A stretch of 64,000 nucleotides of DNA from Phycisphaeraceae bacterium (lineage in GTDB: Bacteria; Planctomycetota; Phycisphaerae; Phycisphaerales; Phycisphaeraceae): positions 1 through 64,000 of the forward strand of contig PAIY01000123.1 in the NCBI GenBank assembly GCA_002704825.1, written 5' to 3'. This document shows positions 72 through 39,001 of the stretch, in pieces. Under the pieces are notes generated by a model. The model did not search any database, had not been told where the DNA came from, and saw nothing but the letters and a program-made list of their open reading frames with translations. How positions within the stretch are numbered: position 1 is the stretch's first letter; every line of letters begins with the position of its first letter. Made by a program: the position numbers and the translations under genes.

Positions 72-203
72 GAGTGGGAGATTAATTGTTTGCATTGCTT
101 TAATGATACCGCCACATGACCCTTGCATTCTCAAATGACATCACGCGTCTGTCAATATTCATTTTGACAGATGAGATGGCAGACGCAGCGAGTTTGTTTG
201 GCA

Positions 204-34458: not shown

Positions 34459-34920
34459 ATGGACACAGGAAAGCTCACTCATATCGATGATGCCGGCAAA
34501 GCTCAGATGGTCAACGTCTCAGCCAAACCCCCAATGCACCGCAAAGCTGTCGCACAAGGCGATTTCGTCGCTTCACCACAGACCCTCGACCGCCTGATGG
34601 CAGGGGATTTACCCAAAGGTGAAGCCCTTGCAGTCGCCCGCATCGCAGGCATTCAGGCAGCCAAACGCACCGATGAACTCATCCCGCTCTGTCATTCGCT
34701 ACCGTTGGATGTGGTCACCGTGGACTTCACCCGCCATGCTGCTGACACCGTCCGCGTCACTGCCTCCGCATCGCTGACCGCCAAGACCGGCGTGGAGATG
34801 GAAGCGCTGGTTGCTGTGTCCGCAGCCTGTCTGACGTTGTATGACATGACCAAGGCTATCGACAAGCAGTTGAAGATTCAGAATGTCGAACTGGTGGAAA
34901 AGACAAAGACACCGGTGTGA
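34459..34920 (+). CDS. moaC: Cyclic pyranopterin monophosphate synthase
   Basis: 153 residues, typical MoaC size. It shows LTHIDDAGKAQMVNVS at the start, LIPLCHSLPLD (about 75) with the conserved His, and GVEMEALVAVSAACLTLYDM (about 112), which holds active-site Glu/Met/Lys positions. It rearranges 3',8-cyclo-7,8-dihydro-GTP to cPMP in molybdenum cofactor synthesis. No other moa gene is adjacent. No Shine-Dalgarno sequence. Confidence 0.95.
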   Translation: MDTGKLTHIDDAGKAQMVNVSAKPPMHRKAVAQGDFVASPQTLDRLMAGDLPKGEALAVARIAGIQAAKRTDELIPLCHSLPLDVVTVDFTRHAADTVRVTASASLTAKTGVEMEALVAVSAACLTLYDMTKAIDKQLKIQNVELVEKTKTPV

Positions 34921-34938: not shown

Positions 34939-35023
34939 CGTCACTCCCGCGCAGGCGGGAGTCCAGTGGAACTTGCAAGTGCGCACAGAATGCCACTGGA
35001 TTCCCGCCTGCGCGGGAATGACG
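34939..35023. repeat. REP-like palindromic repeat, family A, copy 3
   Basis: cgtcactcccgcgcaggcgg at the left end and ttcccgcctgcgcgggaatg at the right end; the 35-bp centre differs from copies 2 and 4. Confidence 0.9.
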
Positions 35024-35152: not shown

Positions 35153-36643
35153 TCACACTTCAATCATCTCTGGCAACTTGATTCCGAACGGGATCGCTTG
35201 CGAGCGGATCCGACGGATCACTTCCTGGGGTGTCATGCGCTTGACCGCGCGTTTGGCACGGTGTTGATCGCTGAGCCATGTTGCAAAGCTGCGTTGGAGT
35301 CGCCATGAAATAAACGTGTCAAAGGCATGTTTGCGATACGGATCGAATAAATCCAACTCACCAAAAAGAATCTGACAGCCAAGGATCAACAGGTCCTGGA
35401 GAATGTATACCGACTGTTCATCAAGATGATCCATGTGATGTCGCGCAACCGACATCACCACGGGAAGGCTACATGCAGCAAGCAAATCTTTGAGTTGACC
35501 TGCCTGTTTGATGTCCGTGGTGATGGCTTTGATTTGCGTTGCAGTACACGTATTGGGTTGAAGCTGATCAATCGCTTGCTTGGCGGAATAGCGTAGATAC
35601 TGATACTGCTCAAAGGCCTGGAGCTTGGCAGCGGGTTTTAGCTGCATCATCGAAAACCATTCGTGTAATTCAACAGGCAAATCACTGCTGGCATGGGTGT
35701 CGGGCGACTGCCAATCGGTGTCGCGGATTTTAAACTGCCGATACCGTTTGACCTTCGCCGGGTCGGTGTAACTTTCCTGAAACCTGGCGGGATCGATTCT
35801 CAGACGCTTAAAGACCTGAAGCTTTGCATTGAGAATGGCGCGACGGATGGTCGAAGGCGTTTTACCGAATTGTTTTGCTAATTGACTGGTGGACATACCA
35901 CGCTGCTGCAGTCGCGCGATCTGTCTTGCCTGTCGATCCGTTAACGGGCCGTGATGATCGGGAAACAACGGATGATCCGGGTTGGTTTGGTCGTGTTTTT
36001 GCAGTTGCAGTCGGATGGTCTGCAGCGGACGGCCGGTCTGTTTTGAAAGTACGGATGCCACCTGATTCAAACTCAAAGTCGGATCATCGCTTGCGAGTAG
36101 GCGTGCATCGGCAATGAGGTGATCGACATCATTGGCCGACATCTTTTCCCGATCAGTTGCCTGCTTGATCTTGCCCGGATGACGTTTGTCGAAGCTGTCA
36201 AGGGCAGAGGGCGTGAACCCGAGAATCATACGCTTTTGACCGGGCGGTTTGTACCAGCGACTTCGCAGGCCCATGTCGCGCCATCGGTGAATGGTTTTGG
36301 TACTGACGTTGAGCTGCTTGGCCAGGGTTGCCAGGTCGGTCATCGGTTCTTTGCCAGGCAGGACGTCGGTGTTCAAGCAGAGTTCTTCAATGGCGGTTCG
36401 CAGGTCGGGCAAGAGCGCTTCACCGACAAGGATGGTGGCTTCGTCGAATTCCGATTCACTGTGATAGCCGGTGATGCGGTAATTGATGAAATCGAAGGGG
36501 TAATTCTGATCCGGGTCGATCAGGTCATGCAACACCTCGGCACGGGCGATTTGTTCGGGGCGTTTACTCTTGGGGGTGTAGAGCAGTTGCCGGACAAAAT
36601 CCGCGATGGTTTGATTGCGATAACGGGCGTGCTTGATATCCAT
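35153..36643 (-). CDS. Sigma70-region-2-like protein with three HTH motifs
   Basis: 496 residues. Near the C-terminus (about 388-458) SLPVVMSVARHHMD, ILQDLLILGCQILF, LDLFDPYRKHAFDTFISW and RLQRSFATWL follow the order and spacing of sigma70 region 2 (core binding and -10 recognition). Upstream are three helix-turn-helix motifs: LATLAKQLNVSTKTIHRWRD (about 103), LNQVASVLSKQTGRPLQTI (about 188) and MSTSQLAKQFGKTPSTIRRA (about 248). No region 4 follows region 2. It likely acts on transcription, as an unusual sigma factor or a derived regulator. The gene starts 1 bp after the mqnA stop, so the two are in one operon. Confidence 0.72.
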   Translation of the reverse strand: MDIKHARYRNQTIADFVRQLLYTPKSKRPEQIARAEVLHDLIDPDQNYPFDFINYRITGYHSESEFDEATILVGEALLPDLRTAIEELCLNTDVLPGKEPMTDLATLAKQLNVSTKTIHRWRDMGLRSRWYKPPGQKRMILGFTPSALDSFDKRHPGKIKQATDREKMSANDVDHLIADARLLASDDPTLSLNQVASVLSKQTGRPLQTIRLQLQKHDQTNPDHPLFPDHHGPLTDRQARQIARLQQRGMSTSQLAKQFGKTPSTIRRAILNAKLQVFKRLRIDPARFQESYTDPAKVKRYRQFKIRDTDWQSPDTHASSDLPVELHEWFSMMQLKPAAKLQAFEQYQYLRYSAKQAIDQLQPNTCTATQIKAITTDIKQAGQLKDLLAACSLPVVMSVARHHMDHLDEQSVYILQDLLILGCQILFGELDLFDPYRKHAFDTFISWRLQRSFATWLSDQHRAKRAVKRMTPQEVIRRIRSQAIPFGIKLPEMIEV

Positions 36644-36644
36644 A

Positions 36645-37460
36645 TCACAAGGTGACGGGGCGAGGCGATTCTATGAGTTTCAGTTCGTGCATGTATTTTC
36701 CAAACAGTTCCATGGCAGCCAGTTCGTCTTTGCCCACTTCGTAATGCAGGTTTTTCGTCATGTACTCATGCGCCAACGCCTGGGGCCAACCATGTCGCTG
36801 AGCAAACTCCGCAGCAATCGCTTCGCGGCGGGACATGTTGTATTCAAGAATCTCATTCATCCAATGCGACAACTGCCCAAGGTCCTTCTCTTCTTTGGCA
36901 AGCCATGTCGCGAACATGAACGGTAAACCCGTCATCCTTGCCCACGCGGCACCGAGGTCCAATTGGTATGGATACTCCACGGCCTTGGGCGATTCGGTGA
37001 CCACCTTGTCACCAATGAGCAGCATTGCATTGGGACTCAGGTCGGCTTCCTTATGTCGATTAAACGGCACGATGTTGACCGACTGTAAATACTGTTTGGC
37101 CATGATCACCCGCAGCAGGTTCACACTGGTATGACTGTCCGTATCCGCGTGAATCTCCGTGAGTTCCTCAATCGGTGTTCGGCTGAAGAGGCAAACCGTC
37201 AGCGTGTGATCCCGACTGCATATCCCGCCACAGGGCACCAGCTTCAACGGCGTCGGACTGGTGAAATAATCCACCACCGGACACAGCGCAACATCCACTT
37301 TGTCATCAAGCAGATCAGCCAACAGGTGACTGGGCACGTCATAACGGACATGCACGGATGGATAAGCAGTCGTAAGCCCCGCGATCAACGGCTTGGAGTT
37401 TAGAAAACTCACACAACCAACCCGGTAATCGTGTTCCGTCTGAGAAGATGTGTCGGTCAT
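36645..37460 (-). CDS. mqnA: Chorismate dehydratase, futalosine menaquinone pathway
   Basis: 271 residues of the periplasmic-binding-like MqnA/MqnD fold. RVGCVSFLNSKPL (about 13) is the hallmark MqnA start; PSHLLADLLDDKVDVALCPV and DLGAAWARMTGLPFMFATW are also typical. It dehydrates chorismate to 3-[(1-carboxyvinyl)oxy]benzoate, the first step of the futalosine route to menaquinone. Other mqn genes are not in the window, except perhaps the UbiD-like gene at 45160. It is upstream of, and nearly touching, the sigma-like gene. Confidence 0.92.
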   Translation of the reverse strand: MTDTSSQTEHDYRVGCVSFLNSKPLIAGLTTAYPSVHVRYDVPSHLLADLLDDKVDVALCPVVDYFTSPTPLKLVPCGGICSRDHTLTVCLFSRTPIEELTEIHADTDSHTSVNLLRVIMAKQYLQSVNIVPFNRHKEADLSPNAMLLIGDKVVTESPKAVEYPYQLDLGAAWARMTGLPFMFATWLAKEEKDLGQLSHWMNEILEYNMSRREAIAAEFAQRHGWPQALAHEYMTKNLHYEVGKDELAAMELFGKYMHELKLIESPRPVTL

Positions 37461-37474
37461 GTGGATAGTATACA

Positions 37475-37576
37475 GCGCTGCGCGAGAGAGTAGACAGGAG
37501 AATAGTAGATCAGGAGATCAAGGCATGAAAGTTCCCCTGTTCTCCTGTTCTCCTGCTCTCCTCTCTCGCGCAGCGC
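37475..37576. repeat. Long inverted repeat with ttctcctg minisatellite
   Basis: Arms gcgctgcgcgagagag (37475-37490) and ctctctcgcgcagcgc (37561-37576) are perfect complements. The right half contains tandem gttctcct units. It fills the divergent region between mqnA and the NtrC-type gene. Confidence 0.75.
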
Positions 37577-37618: not shown

Positions 37619-39001
37619 ATGAAAAGCGAACAGAACGACATTCCGACTGCACAGATACTCATCGTCGATGACGAGGACTCCCATGCTGAAGTGATGGCAG
37701 AGGCCCTGCGTCGACTGGGGCATGTGTGTACCGTGGTTCATGACCTGCCGTCTGCCAAGGATGAGCTGGAACACGGGCGATTTGACCTGGTGGTCACCGA
37801 CCTGGTGATGGATGATGAAGATGATGGTCAGCAGGTTTTAGCCTGTGCCCGTCAGACACAGGAAAATGCGCAGACGATCATGGTCACCGCGCATGGCGAT
37901 GTCCCCACCGCCAAGCAGGCCATCCGTGGCGGGGCGTATGACTTCATCGAAAAACCGCTGGACCTGGATAACTTCCGCACGCTCTGTTCCAACGCGTTAC
38001 GTGAGGTGATGCTCCGCAGCCAGAATGCGACCCTCCATGAACGCCTTGACGAACAGTACGGCCTGGAAGGCATCGTGGGCAAGTCGCCTGCGATCCGTGA
38101 CCTGTTGGTGAAAATCAAGCAGGTTGCCAACAGCAATATCCCCGTGCTCATCACCGGCGAATCGGGGACCGGTAAGGAACTCATCGCCCAGGCGATCCAT
38201 CAAAACTCACCGCGAGCCAAGCGGACTTTCAAGCCCGTGAACTGTGCAGGTTTGTCCGAAGGCATTCTGGAAAGTGAACTCTTCGGCCATGTCCGCGGCG
38301 CGTTCACCAATGCCGAACGCGATCGTCAAGGCGTCTTTGAGTTTGCTGACAAAGGCACGTTGTTCCTCGACGAAATCGGTGACATGCCTTCTGCCATGCA
38401 GGCCAAGTTGCTGCGTGTTCTGGAGAGTGGCGAAGTGGTGCGTGTTGGTGCCAACGAACCCAAACATGTGGATGTCAGACTGGTTTCAGCAACGAATCAT
38501 GACCTTGCCCAACGCGTCGAGGAAAAAGAATTCCGTGGTGACTTGTACTTCCGCATCCGTGGTGTGGAGTTGCATCTGCCAGCCTTGCGTGAACGCACCG
38601 AAGACATCCCGCTGCTCGTTGCCCATTACATCCCCAGGTTTGCAGCCCAGGCCAACATGGAGCCGCCCACCGTGGACCAGGACACGATGCTGGCGCTACA
38701 AGCCTACGATTGGCCTGGCAATGTCCGACAACTCATCAACACCATTCAGCAGATGGTGGTGGTCTGTGATGGTGATCGACTTGAGCCGCGACATTTGCCC
38801 ATGGAAATCCGTCCGACAGCAGGGGCGTCCACCGGTTCGGTCGCTGAGATCAAGAGTGGCATGAGTCTGGACCAACTGGAAAAACAAGCCATCCGCGAAG
38901 CCCTGCGAATCCATGCAGGTAACCGTGAAGCCGCTGCCAAAATGCTTGGGATCGGCGAACGCACACTCTATCGAAAACTCAAGGAATACGGGCTCAAATA
39001 A
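37619..39001 (+). CDS. NtrC-type sigma54-dependent response regulator
   Basis: 460 residues. Receiver domain (about 12-130) with phospho-acceptor Asp 61 in VVTDLVMDD and Lys in FIEKPL. AAA+ domain with Walker A GESGTGKE (about 179) and Walker B LFLDEIGD. The sigma54-contact loop reads GAFTNA, not GAFTGA. The C-terminal Fis-type HTH is GNREAAAKMLGIGERTLYRK. It would activate sigma54 promoters on phosphorylation. No sensor kinase is adjacent. Confidence 0.94.
   Translation: MKSEQNDIPTAQILIVDDEDSHAEVMAEALRRLGHVCTVVHDLPSAKDELEHGRFDLVVTDLVMDDEDDGQQVLACARQTQENAQTIMVTAHGDVPTAKQAIRGGAYDFIEKPLDLDNFRTLCSNALREVMLRSQNATLHERLDEQYGLEGIVGKSPAIRDLLVKIKQVANSNIPVLITGESGTGKELIAQAIHQNSPRAKRTFKPVNCAGLSEGILESELFGHVRGAFTNAERDRQGVFEFADKGTLFLDEIGDMPSAMQAKLLRVLESGEVVRVGANEPKHVDVRLVSATNHDLAQRVEEKEFRGDLYFRIRGVELHLPALRERTEDIPLLVAHYIPRFAAQANMEPPTVDQDTMLALQAYDWPGNVRQLINTIQQMVVVCDGDRLEPRHLPMEIRPTAGASTGSVAEIKSGMSLDQLEKQAIREALRIHAGNREAAAKMLGIGERTLYRKLKEYGLK

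Follow-up and report, generated by a model that had tools for sequence, protein, structure and literature searches.

The window, i.e., the whole 64,000-nucleotide stretch of DNA analyzed here, carries a multi-HTH protein gene of the sigma family on its reverse strand, directly downstream of mqnA. The encoded protein is built by an N-terminal domain (N1), an array of three HTHs, a sigma region 1.2-like and region 2 module, and a short C-terminal tail (Table 1).

Table 1. Positions in the window of the sigma-family gene, its domains, and the elements of its operon
Feature	Coordinates	Strand	Basis
Multi-HTH sigma-family protein, whole gene	35153..36643	(-)	ORF, 496 aa, ATG start
N1 domain, residues 1-95	36359..36643	(-)	Alignments; E36, Y48, T58, G74, D80 conserved
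HTH1, residues 100-160, MerR/HTH_17-like plus wing (VSTKTIHRWRDMGLR)	36164..36346	(-)	Pfam; AF2
HTH2, residues 161-222 (SLNQVASVLSKQTGRPLQTIRLQL)	35978..36163	(-)	AF2 helices; conserved R205, T209, R211
HTH3, residues 230-285, NarL/sigma4-like HTH	35789..35956	(-)	HTH_23 E=8.5e-8; structural neighbors
Sigma region 1.2-like + region 2 module, residues 320-462	35258..35686	(-)	VIA-align; family profile
Sigma region 2 core, residues 386-456	35276..35488	(-)	Sigma70_r2 E=0.013; hhalign to RpoD; dN/dS
Short C-terminal tail, 34 residues + stop	35153..35257	(-)	Alignment; region 4 position in relatives
mqnA, futalosine-pathway menaquinone biosynthesis, upstream partner	36645..37460	(-)	PF02621 E=5.6e-41
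TATACT, -10-like box, candidate leaderless operon promoter	37467..37472	(-)	6 nt upstream of mqnA ATG

The three HTH motifs that the initial annotation placed ahead of the sigma region are borne out by Pfam and by predicted secondary structure. Pfam matches in the array cover residues 102-125 (MerR/HTH_17-like) and 234-276 (HTH_23/sigma4-like), and the predicted secondary structure outlines HTHs at residues 104-124 with a wing, 192-220, and 236-280. In the AF2 model, HTH1 consists of helices 104-111 and 115-124 plus strands, and HTH2 of helices 192-203 and 207-220. The match of HTH3 (residues 234-276) to Sigma70_r4_2 is weak in the window protein (E=0.0021), while in family members Pfam matches of HTH3 to Sigma70_r4/r4_2 reach 4.4e-5, with a best value of 4.3e-6 (r4). 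LuxR-type and sigma4 domains are among its structural neighbors, with Z ~6.5-7.5, which is weak. Judged from these matches, the likeness of HTH3 to sigma4 is weak and generic. The Pfam scan matched no receiver domain in the window protein.

Sigma Region 2 and the C-Terminal End

Region 2 and region 4 together define a sigma factor. The initial annotation had described a region 2-like domain with region 4 missing, and both parts of this description hold. The DP-R-FDTFISW block that it quoted is present at residues 434-447 (DPYRKHAFDTFISW), and the domain itself is real by two measures, the family profile (down to 1.3e-8) and the predicted fold (Z ~12). The profile check proposed with it, of the PF04542 type, has a split outcome. 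With the single sequence it is negative, as the Pfam search returned Sigma70_r2 at E=0.013, below the curated cutoff; TIGR02937 matched at 3.9e-8, also under its cutoff. The check is positive for L052, a protein from the same genus that is 67% identical and scores above the Pfam cutoff (28.1 vs 24 bits, E=1.8e-6), and for a 27-member family profile, which matched SigA, RpoD, and RpoS among the PDB sigma factors with E down to 1.3e-8. Profile-profile alignment with hhalign to planctomycete RpoD covered residues 383-459 (E=1.4e-4, probability 53%). An RpoD profile searched against whole genomes did not retrieve the window protein at E<=0.001 and retrieved its canonical relatives through both regions.

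The AF2 model of the window protein has a pLDDT of 85.9. In VIA-align, its residues 320-462 superpose on primary sigma factors with Z ~11-12 over ~130-140 residues (rmsd mostly 2.4-3.6), a range in which values below ~13 are possibly non-specific for helical bundles, though here the sequence profiles concur. Sigma factors make up all of the listed top 50 structural matches from VIA-align. Since the superposition spans residues 320-462, the module takes in a region 1.2-like part too. With the whole AF2 model as query, Foldseek found nothing at E <= 0.001, and the sigma match rests on VIA-align. Profile and structure evidence together rule out a chance match: on the aligned profiles and the modeled fold, region 2 is homologous to that of sigma-70, and the protein is a member of the sigma-70 family by structure and evolution.

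No region 4 is present after residue 462, where 34 residues are left, as opposed to ~100 more in relatives with a clear Sigma70_r4. The window protein thus ends 34 residues past region 2 and, with region 4 absent, lacks the minimal pair of region 2 and region 4 that marks ECF (group 4) sigma factors.

Relatives and Direction of Change

Relatives were compared within Planctomycetota. The family profile has matches in 198 of 198 sampled Phycisphaerae genomes, so that the HTH-array sigma is represented in every one; the best match is full-length in most listed genomes, often in a reading frame of ~550-600 aa, and weaker in some. Some other Planctomycetota families have full-length members too, and many families have ordinary sigma factors alone. 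The canonical multi-HTH sigma-70 relatives (the L096-L134 set) share with the window protein the N-terminal domain, the three HTHs, the region 1.2-like part, and region 2, with a full-length profile-profile match over residues 6-460 (probability 100%, E=8e-104). Unlike the window protein, they keep the motifs S-[DE]-G-N and F-S-T-Y-A-S-W and a C-terminal region 4.

In Pfam searches, Sigma70_r2 and Sigma70_r4 are both found in all 35 sampled relatives outside the window's order. Within the order, family f6 has r2 in 5/5 and r4 in 4/5 members. In the window's own family (f1), r2 reaches E<0.01 in just 5 of 27 members, the C-terminus stops shortly past region 2, and those r4 matches that were located individually fall on internal HTHs. 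For families f2-f5, four others of the same order, the matched-family table lists r2 in 0/18 members and an r4-like end in 13/18. The f2-f5 members (L033-L050, L124, L129) retain N1 and the HTHs, with region 2 beyond Pfam recognition and often a region 4-like C-terminus. Because they keep the HTH array without a recognizable region 2, the HTH part should have a role independent of region 2. Thus, one orthologous gene exists in three forms, i.e., a complete sigma factor, a form lacking region 4, and a form without recognizable region 2, with the HTH array constant. With the three forms, one could test where in the protein the function resides and if a sigma factor is able to become an ordinary regulator, and the region 4 loss in the window's family is a natural test of the minimal requirements of a sigma factor.

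Family f33 has short relatives of ~370 aa (L112, 7419-6279, -; L113, 6587-7733, +) with no HTH array: N1 runs straight into sigma region 2, and a region 4-like end follows. These two proteins suggest that the HTH array and N1 are separable modules.

In a tree built from N-terminal columns only, a single branch separates each group from the rest. The window's order lies opposite the canonical outgroup, and f1 is placed with the other members of the order. This position makes the combination of HTH array, region 2, and region 4 the likely ancestral form. The branching order of f1, f6, and the f2-f5 clade has 28% support, and one or two erosions of region 2 both fit. As read from the tree and the domain counts, the window protein is descended from full sigma factors, and the loss of region 4 is the derived state of its family. 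The idea of a new domain arrangement is not upheld: the HTH array is ancestral, and all 35 relatives outside the order, as well as 4/5 of f6, have it together with region 4. It had also been proposed that the HTHs replace region 4 in -35 recognition. As the array is older than the loss, it could not have been recruited for this purpose; the part of the proposal that stands is that HTH3 could act as a substitute. Similarly, HTH3 as a relocated region 4 is ruled out by the canonical relatives, which carry HTH3 and a C-terminal region 4 together. The HTH array could have rendered region 4 dispensable.

Erosion has been uneven along the protein. Among 20 region 2 positions conserved in at least 90% of canonical relatives, f1 keeps 49%, f6 86%, and f2-f5 23-28%, and among 21 conserved positions of the N-terminal half, f1 keeps 91% and f2-f5 76-95% (group means); both sets were picked on the canonical relatives, so that the absolute values are biased and the contrast between the halves is not. 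An acid at the position of sigma-70 E407 is found in 34/35 canonical relatives, 4/5 of f6, 2/28 of f1, and 0/18 of f2-f5. Within-group mean pairwise identity is 61% in region 2 vs 33% in N1 for canonical relatives, and 35% vs 48% for the window's family.

Nonetheless, region 2 as dead sequence is unsupported, given a region 2 dN/dS of 0.027 between the window protein and that of G001, from the same genus. Against G003, region 2 has the lowest dN of all domains, in a pair with synonymous sites near saturation. In other f1 pairs, region 2 shows a constraint similar to that of the other domains and evolves no slower than they do, and pairwise domain rates in canonical relatives find it almost frozen. 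These substitution rates indicate purifying selection on region 2 within the window's genus. The clamp signature reads I-L-G-C in the window protein, compared to S-[DE]-G-N in canonical relatives. The region 2.2 helix has 2.4 acidic residues in f1 vs 2.3 in canonical relatives, which leaves RNA polymerase (RNAP) binding possible despite the altered signature; acidity is also what T4 gp55 uses to bind the clamp (PMC7892883). Of the aromatics that read the -10 element, the window protein has F441, F444 (Y in relatives), and W447, positions that vary across f1; the W433 equivalent is present in 15/28 f1 members and the T429 equivalent in 5/28, and the -10 block of canonical relatives is F-S-T-Y-A-S-W. 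Taken together, the constraint on region 2, the kept aromatics, and the kept region 2.2 acidity make a contact with RNAP plausible but remodeled. From substitution rates, the model, and comparison with known sigma factors, we consider the chance that the window protein still contacts RNAP slightly better than even.

The mqnA Operon and Its Promoter

The ORF coordinates agree with the earlier statement that 1 bp separates the mqnA stop from the start of the sigma-family ORF downstream, and the proposed operon exists and is a conserved feature of the order. Of 42 loci in the order, f6 with its canonical sigma included, 36 have the two genes side by side on one strand, compared to 0 of 37 loci outside it. 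A functional tie to menaquinone synthesis was considered and is opposed by this order-only linkage, whose confinement probably reflects operon hitch-hiking or shared expression. Judged by gene order, the mqnA link does not account for the origin of the sigma-family protein.

No -35 element was found at normal spacing from the TATACT box. Nearly all f1 relatives (L052, L056-L067, L084-L095) have TATAAT or TATACT 6-9 nt before the mqnA ATG, a distance that implies a leaderless mRNA. Genome-wide, the -10-only leaderless pattern is enriched in the related genome G012 (47 vs 13 in the control), where it precedes 19 further genes whose -35 scores are those expected by chance, and shows no excess in the window's own genome, G000 (139 vs 141). 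The wider class in G012 and the lack of excess in G000 led us to reject this promoter type as a signature of the window protein and to treat it as no more than a lead.

A divergent gene for an NtrC-like response regulator (37619-39001, +) is preceded by TTGACC-N17-GACAAT, likewise in L052, so that a promoter with a -35 element adjoins the -35-less mqnA promoter. Upstream of mqnA, positions 37475-37576 form an imperfect inverted repeat of ~100 bp with 20-nt arms (GCGCTGCGCGAGAGAGTAGA, 95% complementary), which is single copy in the assembly and missing at the same place in relatives; L051 has a different repeat-like insertion in its mqnA upstream region. At the other end of the operon, an inverted repeat of the CATTCCCGCGCAGGCGGGAATCC type (34939-35023; 31-nt arms, 94%) sits between a moaC-like gene (34459-34920) and the sigma-family gene.

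Possible Roles of the Protein

The reading we prefer, to which we give an even chance, is that the window protein is a DNA-binding regulator derived from the sigma-70 family, anchored by its HTHs and probably still touching RNAP. By outgroup comparison, its ancestor was an alternative sigma of Planctomycetota in which an HTH array at the N-terminus was followed by a region 1.2-like part and by regions 2 and 4; the window's family then lost region 4. The HTH array would bind specific DNA, and the region 1.2-2 module would dock on RNAP, perhaps weakly, and possibly on -10 DNA. Since region 4 is no longer there to engage the -35 element and the beta flap, anchoring to the promoter would come from the HTH array. 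The protein may thus be a partial sigma tethered to promoters, or a regulator that contacts RNAP, and not a stand-alone housekeeping sigma; housekeeping initiation would presumably fall to the separate canonical RpoD of the same genome (G000, C114:58571-59281). A bolder version, rather unlikely in our judgment, is a region 4-independent sigma whose HTH array anchors RNAP while the remodeled region 2 opens the -10 element, with several steps from sigma factor to HTH regulator surviving in one order.

The protein may instead be a plain DNA-binding regulator, a repressor or an architectural factor, whose function rests with the HTH array, the sigma region being an inherited scaffold for folding or dimerization that makes no contact with RNAP. 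The order-wide retention of HTH and N-terminal positions (76-95%), against 49% for region 2 in f1 and 23-28% in f2-f5, speaks for this, as do the loss of the E407-equivalent acid in 26/28 f1 members and the deletion of region 4 in the window's family. We regard it as somewhat doubtful, however, because no other domain is as constrained in the window's genus as region 2, the window protein keeps the predicted fold and the -10 aromatics, and f1 keeps the region 2.2 acidity. The opposite possibility, that the protein is a fully active, stand-alone sigma in which the sigma4-like HTH3 reads the -35 element in place of region 4, seems improbable. HTH3 does match Sigma70_r4/r4_2 and has sigma4 structures among its neighbors, and the operon's own promoter is a strong -10-like box without a -35 at normal spacing, but such boxes belong to a wider class in G012, HTH3 and a genuine region 4 occur together in canonical relatives, a position ahead of region 2 is a different topology, and the clamp motif is lost. 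Finally, the degenerate sigma region could bind an anti-sigma factor or a partner of RNAP and free another sigma, a mimicry for which PhyR, whose sigma-like domain has degenerate RNAP and promoter contacts, is the precedent (PMC8103513). Paralogous sigma factors are indeed present in G000, but the Pfam scan gave no receiver domain, a non-exhaustive look at recurrent neighbors recognized no anti-sigma gene, and the three conserved HTHs suggest DNA binding, which makes this explanation very improbable.

Diverged and incomplete sigma proteins offer points of comparison for the preferred reading of an HTH-anchored, sigma-derived regulator. PhyR resembles the window protein in combining a sigma fold with degenerate contacts to RNAP and the promoter, but carries a receiver domain and titrates NepR, whereas the window protein has an HTH array and no receiver (PMC8103513). 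Region 2-only or split sigma proteins are known already. For instance, in SigO-RsoA of Bacillus subtilis, the region 2 and region 4 functions are on separate polypeptides, and RsoA is region 2-only (PMC8103513); unlike the window protein, RsoA is small and without an HTH array. The late sigma of phage T4, gp55, binds the clamp helices via three acidic residues of its region 2 homology domain and, a diverged sigma like the window protein, reads a -10-like element; however, it is a phage protein that lacks an HTH array and depends on the sliding clamp for anchoring, with help from gp33 (PMC7892883).

The HTH-array sigma family appears to be undescribed in the literature examined, which leaves out the likeliest planctomycete papers. 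The planctomycete ECF sigma factors ECF87-89 (old groups) were reportedly first described in Wiegand 2020. They likewise have N-terminal extensions of unknown mechanism (PMC8103513) but differ in that the window member is without region 4. ECF sigma factors are reported to be partly without region 1.2 (PMC4598750), and the window's family has a region 1.2-like segment.
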